Assembly (NCBI GenBank): GCA_018396415.1
Contig: JAGTRE010000004.1
Span: 85,380 to 135,338 of the forward strand
Source of the DNA: Candidatus Bathyarchaeota archaeon
Lineage (GTDB): Archaea > Thermoproteota > Bathyarchaeia > RBG-16-48-13 > JAGTRE01
Direction of reading: 5' to 3'
Length of the DNA stretch: 49,959 nucleotides
Position numbers and translations under genes: made by a program. The first letter of the stretch is position 1; the number at the start of each line of letters is the position of its first letter. The notes under the pieces were generated by a model. That model saw only the letters and a list, made by a program, of their open reading frames with translations. It was not told the DNA's origin and made no database searches. Of the stretch, positions 32,161 through 39,879 are shown piece by piece.

Positions 32161-32287
32161 TGGAGCCCCGGGCGGGATTCGAACCCGCGACTTCCGGCTT
32201 ATTGTAATGCAAACCTCGAGTGATAATATCTTATACCAAGCCGGCGCCTGTGGTCCTAATTGTTAGACCAGGCTGGGCCACCGGGGC
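32161..32287 (-). tRNA. tRNA-Thr(GGU) with two introns
   Basis: The acceptor GCCCCGG pairs with CCGGGGC, followed by U73 and encoded CCA. Anticodon stem CCGGC/GCCGG encloses TTGGTA-A (anticodon GGT), split by a 34-nt intron at 37/38 (32200-32233; BHB core TTGG/ACAA, 3 of 4). A second intron of 16 nt sits in the D-loop (32249-32264), with core TGGT/ACCA, all four pairs. Mature length is 74 nt. Confidence 0.88.
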
Positions 32288-35916: not shown

Positions 35917-36050
35917 GCGGGGTTAGCCAAGTGGTCAAAATTAGCATCGCAAAACTTGTGATGCTAATGGTATGGCGACAGGCTTAGGTGATCGTACTCG
36001 GAGAAACCTGTTGGCGAAGGCCTTCGTGGGTTCGAATCCCACACCCCGCA
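35917..36050 (+). tRNA. tRNA-Leu(UAG) with two introns
   Basis: The acceptor GCGGGGT pairs with ACCCCGC, A73, no encoded CCA. A class II variable arm (CGAA/TTCG) follows anticodon stem ACAGG/CCTGT, with loop CTTAGG-A (anticodon TAG). Intron 1 is 34 nt at 22/23 in the D-arm (35940-35973), a perfect 8-bp hairpin TTAGCATC/GATGCTAA with core GTCA/TGGT. Removal restores GCC-AAGTGGTCAAA-GGC. Intron 2 is 17 nt at 37/38 (35989-36005), core CTTA/GGAG (3 of 4). Mature length is 83 nt. Confidence 0.9.
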
Positions 36051-38087: not shown

Positions 38088-38310
38088 TGGCGCCGGCGGA
38101 CTCGTCGGGTTGAAGCTTTTAGCTTCTCACCCTCGGACTCGAACCGCCGACCATTCCCCGGATATGGTTTACCCATATCCAACGGGTCTCCGCATGCTCA
38201 GCATGAGGATTTAACAGCCTCAGCCCCAATGGAGTTTTGTCCATTGGATCCGCTGCTCTACTTCCCCTGTTGGGGTTTTCCCCAAGCAGTCCTAGCTGAG
38301 CTACGCCGGC
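38088..38310 (-). tRNA. tRNA-Asn(GUU) with five introns
   Basis: The acceptor GCCGGCG pairs with CGCCGGC, then G73 and encoded CCA. Proposed introns: (1) 38261-38290, 30 nt, D-loop, restoring AGCTAGGTA; (2) 38219-38249, 31 nt, 30/31, core CAGC/GCTG, 9-bp hairpin; (3) 38188-38211, 24 nt, 37/38, core CTGT/GCGG; (4) 38154-38181, 28 nt, 43/44, core ACCC/GGGG (3 of 4), 8-bp hairpin GGATATGG; (5) 38101-38133, 33 nt, T-stem 63/64, core AGTC/GACG (3 of 4). The mature tRNA is 74 nt: stem GCGGG/CCCGT, loop CTGTTAA, variable TGGTC, T-arm GGCGG-TTCGAGT-CCGTC. Introns total 146 nt. Intron 1's edges are the least certain. Confidence 0.85.
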
Positions 38311-38778: not shown

Positions 38779-39879
38779 TCAGTAGCTTGCCATTTCCTCA
38801 AGTTTTGCAGGTAGGTAGTGGTCGACAATGTAGGATAATCCATATCGGCTGAATGCTTCTTGCTCCGCTTTTTTCCCGATTTTAAGGAATGTCTCTATTT
38901 CCCGTTGCCATAGTTCCCCCTCGTATCGCGGATCCTTCCGTAGTTCATGTAGTCGTTTAATATCCAATTCAGTTAGTCGATCGCTTGGGAGCTTATACTC
39001 AACTATATCAGTTGCCCAAACCCCAGCCCACTTAGCATCAGGAGTTGTCAACTCACGAAGATGTGCGGCATTGGCTGATCCTGAGATGATTACCATTGCG
39101 ATATGCATTCCCCAGGGGTCTCCGTCGGTCAGAATGTAGACTGGTAATCCAAGTTCCTTATTTAGCCTGCGGATGAGGTGTCTTGTCGCCCGTGGTGCCT
39201 GTCCGGCTGTATGAATTAACAATGCGTTGAATCTTTGCCAAGCTCTCTCCTCGATGAACCTAGTGAACATAGCACCTTTCTCAATGCATATAATTTTGTC
39301 AACATTTGACTCAACAAATTCAGCGCTGGTTAATGCTGGCCCGATCATTACTCCATCGGGATGTATAGTTAGATTAAGTCGTTTTCCCTCGTAGCCCGGA
39401 ACTGTGTATTCAATTGTGAGGTTACCGTAGATGGCGCTTCGTTCTTCTGGGAAGACATTAAAGTCTTCTCGGGAATAGCCGATAATTGTTTCAAGATCTG
39501 TGATTATGTCATCTGATTCTTGCTGATCTTTAAAATTCATATCGTAAGCTTGAGCCATATAGTAAACGTCTCTGAGGGTACTTGTTTTGTTTGTGCGGCT
39601 TAAGGAATTAACAACATTAGCAACCCAGACCAACTGAGTAAATGGGCGAATGTGGCGGATGTTGCGGGCGCTTCGTCGAACTACTCGGTTTCCAAGAACG
39701 TATTGTCGGGTTACTGGATCATATTTTATGTTATAAATTGAGCGGCTGGGCATTTCAACTCGGGGAAACTCTTTCCTCTCTATTTGATCATATATCTTGC
39801 AACCAAGTTCCTCAAATGTGCTGATTACTTGGCTCTTGCGTTCTTTTATTGAGGTACGACCTTTCTTTTTCGGAGTCAT
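38779..39879 (-). CDS. top6A: DNA topoisomerase VI subunit A
   Basis: The cleaving subunit, related to Spo11. It is 366 aa. The catalytic Tyr lies in STLRDVYYMAQAYD near residue 103. The Toprim domain has CIEKGAMF (Glu) and ILTDGDPWGMHI (DxD). It needs top6B for activity; the genes are in the usual order B then A in transcription, 43 bp apart. Confidence 0.95.
   Translation of the reverse strand: MTPKKKGRTSIKERKSQVISTFEELGCKIYDQIERKEFPRVEMPSRSIYNIKYDPVTRQYVLGNRVVRRSARNIRHIRPFTQLVWVANVVNSLSRTNKTSTLRDVYYMAQAYDMNFKDQQESDDIITDLETIIGYSREDFNVFPEERSAIYGNLTIEYTVPGYEGKRLNLTIHPDGVMIGPALTSAEFVESNVDKIICIEKGAMFTRFIEERAWQRFNALLIHTAGQAPRATRHLIRRLNKELGLPVYILTDGDPWGMHIAMVIISGSANAAHLRELTTPDAKWAGVWATDIVEYKLPSDRLTELDIKRLHELRKDPRYEGELWQREIETFLKIGKKAEQEAFSRYGLSYIVDHYLPAKLEEMASY

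Follow-up and report, generated by a model that had tools for sequence, protein, structure and literature searches.

Archaeal tRNA genes are reported to carry up to three introns, the figure given with tRNAscan-SE 2.0 after 217 archaeal genomes (PMC8450103), and the same maximum per gene appears in other reports (PMC4390854, PMC4033280, PMC3293823). The ceiling of about three introns that a first-pass annotation of the DNA studied here had named agrees with these papers. Non-canonical introns are associated with the alpha2beta2 endonuclease (PMC4090602, PMC4033280) and, in general, some neighbouring introns must leave before the motif of another can form (PMC8450103). In the open-access literature we found no relevant report of an archaeal tRNA with four or five introns, and nothing on tRNA introns in the Bathyarchaeia. 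Multi-intron tRNA genes are already known; what is new in the tRNA-Asn gene described here is the number of introns, the lineage and the minimal exons.

A tRNA-Asn(GUU) gene interrupted by five inserts

The window, a stretch of 49,959 nucleotides from a Candidatus Bathyarchaeota archaeon, carries a tRNA-Asn(GUU) gene on the minus strand (38310-38091), followed by an encoded CCA (38090-38088). Removal of the five inserts (Table 1) leaves GCCGGCGTAGCTCAGCTAGGTAGAGCAGCGGGCTGTTAACCCGTTGGTCGGCGGTTCGAGTCCGTCCGCCGGCG-CCA, which is 74 nt long (77 nt with the CCA), forms 21/21 stem pairs and carries the archaeal invariant loop bases and the GUU anticodon. This spliced form is identical to the consensus of its relatives at 69/74 positions, and ARAGORN calls it tRNA-Asn(gtt) with every stem paired. 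Note that ARAGORN gives no tRNA when a single insert, or any pair of them, stays in, and that the unspliced gene is missed both by ARAGORN and by Rfam RF00005 on the raw sequence. Because of two introns, the pattern CTGTTAA..GGTTCRA has no match in the window either. The locus, the insert lengths (30, 31, 24, 28 and 33 nt) and the 74-nt product of the first-pass annotation were all reproduced, and the fully paired stems and GTT anticodon that it described are borne out by the ARAGORN call.

Table 1. Exons and introns of the tRNA-Asn(GUU) gene and its neighbour, in window coordinates
Feature	Position or identity	Coordinates	Strand	Remarks
Exon 1, 20 nt	acceptor 5' strand, D-stem 5' strand, D-loop to G19	38291..38310	-	pairs with exon 6; matches relatives' tRNA-Asn
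Intron 1, 30 nt	D-loop, 19/20	38261..38290	-	core GCTA/GGGA, 2/4; inner helix 3 bp
Exon 2, 11 nt	U20-G30	38250..38260	-	
Intron 2, 31 nt	30/31	38219..38249	-	core CAGC/GCTG, 4/4; inner helix 9 bp
Exon 3, 7 nt	G31-A37, including anticodon GUU	38212..38218	-	
Intron 3, 24 nt	canonical 37/38	38188..38211	-	core CTGT/GCGG, 4/4
Exon 4, 6 nt	A38-U43	38182..38187	-	ACCCGT; 5/5 pairs with exons 2+3
Intron 4, 28 nt	43/44	38154..38181	-	core ACCC/GGGG, 3/4; inner helix 8 bp
Exon 5, 20 nt	variable loop to T-stem position 63	38134..38153	-	
Intron 5, 33 nt	T-stem, 63/64	38101..38133	-	core AGTC/GACG, 3/4; inner helix 4 bp
Exon 6	64-73 (G73) and encoded CCA	38088..38100	-	
top6A	topoisomerase VI subunit A	38779..39879	-	Pfam TP6A_N and Toprim; neighbour, outside the tRNA

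The match to tRNA-Asn at this locus is far beyond chance. A profile alignment allowing introns, run on 400 nt around the locus against the mature tRNA-Asn of other genomes, scored 58.7 bits, and the maximum of the same alignment on 200 dinucleotide-preserving shuffles was -20.5 bits. Moreover, the fold energy of the precursor lies 6.7 sd below shuffles.

Five introns are the best reading of these letters. Another parse has four, with introns 3 and 4 fused into one 52-nt intron at 43/44 that leaves AAATCCT instead of AACCCGT, and it is indeed preferred by a profile alignment without base-pair terms in which each intron is charged 13 bits. However, once the alignment scores stem pairs the optimum is the five-intron parse. 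With four introns the anticodon stem falls to 3/5 pairs, ARAGORN reports an 8-nt anticodon loop and an ambiguous call (Asn or Stop), and ACCCGTTGG, a conserved exon in the relatives, would be discarded. In addition, a genome of the same order (G003, L051) has a homologous 37/38 intron (ATCCTC...ACGGAA, compared to AATCCTC...GCGGAG in the window), which, with its core CTGT/ACGG, is the closest look-alike to intron 3 and after which ACCCGTTGGTC continues uninterrupted. We therefore consider four introns extremely improbable, and the five-intron parse is the one followed below.

Splice motifs of the five introns

The motif scan used the standard archaeal geometry of the bulge-helix-bulge (BHB), namely a 4-nt core strand, two bulge bases and then the cut. 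It agrees with the earlier reading of two complete cores (CAGC/GCTG and CTGT/GCGG) and two at 3/4 (ACCC/GGGG and AGTC/GACG). Joint probabilities, obtained by shuffling each intron between fixed exons, were below 0.00005 for introns 2 and 4, 0.0002 for intron 5, 0.005 for intron 3 and about 0.01 for intron 1; for intron 4, 0/20000 shuffled introns matched core and helix together. Shifting the cuts of introns 1-5 by 1-3 nt leaves the product unchanged, and the motif selects those listed in Table 1. Across the parsed tRNA-Asn genes, a 3/4 core is the family norm at the site of intron 5 (9/11 genes), and the 30/31 core is 4/4 in 59/60 genes and covaries, TAGC standing with GTTA in L032-L034.

The 3/4 cores of introns 4 and 5 weigh against splicing of the gene at five BHB motifs, as does intron 1. 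Intron 1 lacks a good BHB: it has the poorest core, with a P(core) of 0.45 in shuffles, and no insert of this kind is found in the relatives' D-loops. Both points would suit a tRNA from which only four inserts are removed, the D-loop insert staying as a long D-arm extension or leaving by a non-BHB route. Such a tRNA would have a 39-nt D-loop if the insert were retained, whereas joining the halves on either side of the insert restores precisely the 9-nt D-loop seen in the same-order relatives. The geometry otherwise fits a BHB: the hairpin CTG(C)TTGGGG/CCCCAACAG provides an inner helix of 3+6 bp between 3-nt bulges (GG^A and AG^T), with a joint P of 0.0096. A D-loop insert is also present in another tRNA gene of the window (35917-36050). 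Taken together, these observations make retention or a non-BHB exit very unlikely, and intron 1 is kept here as a putative BHB intron, although its ends may be off by one nt or more. An alternative D-loop cut with a 3/4 core (TCAG/CAGG) was rejected, since it breaks up G18-G19 and offers no inner helix.

Orthologous genes in the Bathyarchaeia

The best matches to the topoisomerase VI subunit A of the window are Candidatus Bathyarchaeota records, at 76% or less. A tRNA-Asn gene also lies just downstream of top6A in G001, G009 and G010 (L032-L034) and in G008 (L037), all of the same order and with top6A proteins 61-63% identical to that of the window, and the same neighbourhood is found in G011 (L046) as well as in S4B2_HD70 (L061, 76%), a more distant genome. 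This common neighbour ties the tRNA-Asn genes of the relatives to the window gene as orthologues. Note that the closest of these comparisons are at the level of the order.

The L032-L034 and L037 genes contain the 30/31 and 63/64 introns only. Their D-loop is uninterrupted and reads AGTTCGGTA or AGCTCGGTA; CTGTTAAC and the variable loop are uninterrupted as well. These genes therefore display the spliced form expected for introns 1, 3 and 4 of the window. A search of related genomes had been proposed earlier as a check on the locus, and it returned orthologues that read straight through 19/20, 37/38 and 43/44. The 63/64 intron occurs alone in S4B2_HD70 (L039/L061), the 30/31 intron alone in G007 (L246) and G029 (L036), and each of the five insertion sites is uninterrupted in several relatives. 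The gene downstream of top6A in G011 (L046) has introns near 50/51 and at 63/64 and none at 30/31, a set that indicates gain or loss within the order.

Next, we searched 257 Bathyarchaeia genomes with two patterns and parsed the genes from one of these, together with the earlier loci, using the pair-aware intron alignment. The pattern demanding two inserts between anticodon and T-arm found tRNA-Asn in the window's genome only; its other matches were unrelated tRNAs after a chance TGTTA. The parses gave 78 distinct tRNA-Asn genes, with no intron in 14, one in 14, two in 26, three in 23 and five in one, the window gene. Two further parses (L230 and L260) scored negative, that is, showed no fit to tRNA-Asn. 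Introns were located at 30/31 in 60 genes, at 8/9 in 40, at 37/38 in 22 and at 63/64 in 11, the latter sharing site and core with the window. The 30/31, 37/38 and 63/64 introns occupy sites widely used in the class, and those at 19/20 and 43/44, absent from the 77 other distinct genes parsed, look like later gains. Since 90/257 genomes gave no match and the survey is blind to genes with unusual inserts inside the search pattern, a further tRNA-Asn gene with four or more introns may exist elsewhere in the class.

The 8/9 introns showed a feature of their own. All 40 distinct genes that carry one have in their leader, upstream of the true acceptor strand, a second copy of the acceptor 5' strand (GCCGCC, at least 6/7), among them L035, L038, L041, L045, L051, L057, L095 and L216-L228; this doubling was seen in 6/38 genes lacking the intron. 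The core of the 8/9 intron draws on acceptor bases 3-6 (CGCC/GRCG), and before this intron is excised the 3' acceptor strand may therefore be held by the leader copy.

The only tRNA-Asn detected in a genome with disrupted tRNA genes

The assembly is metagenome-derived, 1.39 Mb in 30 contigs and 96% complete. An intact tRNA-Asn(GUU) elsewhere in it, which the first-pass annotation had named as the finding that would speak against the locus, was searched for and not found. None of the Rfam tRNA hits read out in this genome has a GUU anticodon. No intact copy was found with a tRNA-Asn covariance model, which is built on the mature form and blind to an unspliced gene (best hits, at most 56 bits, other isotypes), and the anticodon-to-T-arm pattern with two mismatches matched other isotypes only. 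A second tRNA-Asn could lie in the missing 4% of the assembly.

Were the working tRNA-Asn in that missing part, the copy in the window could be a decaying pseudogene, a reading left room by the completeness and the number of contigs. Against it, no exon base is damaged: the 21/21 stem pairs, the invariant loop bases and the CCA are all kept, and the gene holds the orthologous position beside top6A. Comparable interruptions occur in other tRNAs of this genome, and random decay would not create hairpin inserts of 28-33 nt with BHB geometry. Decay is consequently hard to credit, and a working gene is the reading we retain.

Several of the other tRNA genes in this genome are interrupted too. A tRNA-Tyr(GUA) gene (L155, G000 C2 from ~134771) has four introns, at 30/31, 37/38, 53/54 and 59/60, with all four cores at 4/4 and a spliced form that ARAGORN calls tRNA-Tyr; this gene, too, exceeds the three introns of the published maximum. 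A tRNA-Lys(UUU) gene (L150, G000 C2 ~132990-133130, minus strand) has three, at 30/31, 37/38 and ~43/44. Its ~43/44 intron has the same ACCC exon core as intron 4 of the window and its D-arm matches that of tRNA-Asn, and this gene is a possible source of the 43/44 intron. Two more disrupted tRNA genes (L024 and L029, at G000 C13:21383 and C16:764) show, before an insert, the same doubling of the acceptor strand (AGCCCGG..AGCCCGG) as the genes with an 8/9 intron. Within the window, the tRNA gene at 35917-36050 (plus strand) carries one insert in the D-loop, a long hairpin, and another near the anticodon, and is missed by ARAGORN and found by Rfam, and a tRNA gene with inserts at 32164-32287 (minus strand, L142) gives a weak Rfam match and is detected by the tRNA-Asn model. 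The tRNA-Asn of the window is the extreme of a generally disrupted tRNA set.

Predicted processing

The same genome encodes two proteins with both tRNA endonuclease domains (PF01974; genes at L184 1471-2052 and L185 1249-1785), one of which keeps the Tyr/His/Lys pattern, the other apparently lacking the catalytic His. From these motifs we take EndA to be of the alpha2beta2 type, with a catalytic and a non-catalytic subunit; this type and epsilon2 are the forms able to cut non-canonical sites. A gene for the RtcB ligase is also present. This gene (L286 1498-4161, minus strand; G000 C2:90883-93678) is split by an intein of ~480 aa, inserted between GVGYDIN and C.

What can be read from the DNA is the exons, the cloverleaf that splicing would give, the intron sites conserved in relatives, and the genes for endonuclease and ligase; transcription, cleavage and ligation we infer. 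The locus is very probably a working tRNA-Asn(GUU) gene, from whose transcript an alpha2beta2-type EndA would excise five introns at BHB motifs and whose six exons RtcB would ligate. An order of events is also suggested. A 4-nt core strand and two bulge bases need 6 nt, and exons 3 and 4 have just 7 and 6 nt. Likewise, the outer helix of intron 3 is the anticodon stem, which has 2 bp as long as introns 2 and 4 are in place and reaches 7 bp only after both have left. On both counts, introns 2 and 4 would leave before intron 3. That the exons are at the physical minimum for a BHB (6-7 nt), that the cleavage order is obligatory and that the D-loop intron uses a degenerate motif belonging to none of the known BHB variants is a proposal we make only tentatively.

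Discussion

With its five introns, the window gene would exceed the limit of three per archaeal tRNA gene given in the papers found, and would place the record in the Bathyarchaeia, not in the Thermoproteales. Since standard tools miss such genes, the tRNA sets of these genomes look incomplete when they are complete. Moreover, the orthologues form a graded series, with 0-3 and then five introns and several common sites, in which intron gain and splicing order are directly testable.

The other tRNA-Asn genes of the class resemble the window gene in their exons and in the 30/31, 37/38 and 63/64 sites, and the nearest ones also in the top6A neighbour. They differ in having 0-3 introns, none of them at 19/20 or 43/44, and many carry the 8/9 intron that the window gene lacks. 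As in the window gene, the tRNA-Ile(UAU) of the red alga Cyanidioschyzon merolae has introns in the D-, anticodon and T-arms, but this is a eukaryotic gene with three introns (PMC9602550). Finally, the tRNA-Glu(UUC) of Pyrobaculum calidifontis and the tRNA-Pro(UGG) of P. islandicum, both Thermoproteales, have three introns to the five of the window gene (PMC4390854, PMC4090602). Like the window gene with its predicted BHB introns and endonuclease type, the Thermoproteales tRNAs have several short BHB introns, at canonical and non-canonical sites, and an (alpha beta)2 endonuclease; unlike them, the window gene belongs to the Bathyarchaeia and has two exons of only 6 and 7 nt.
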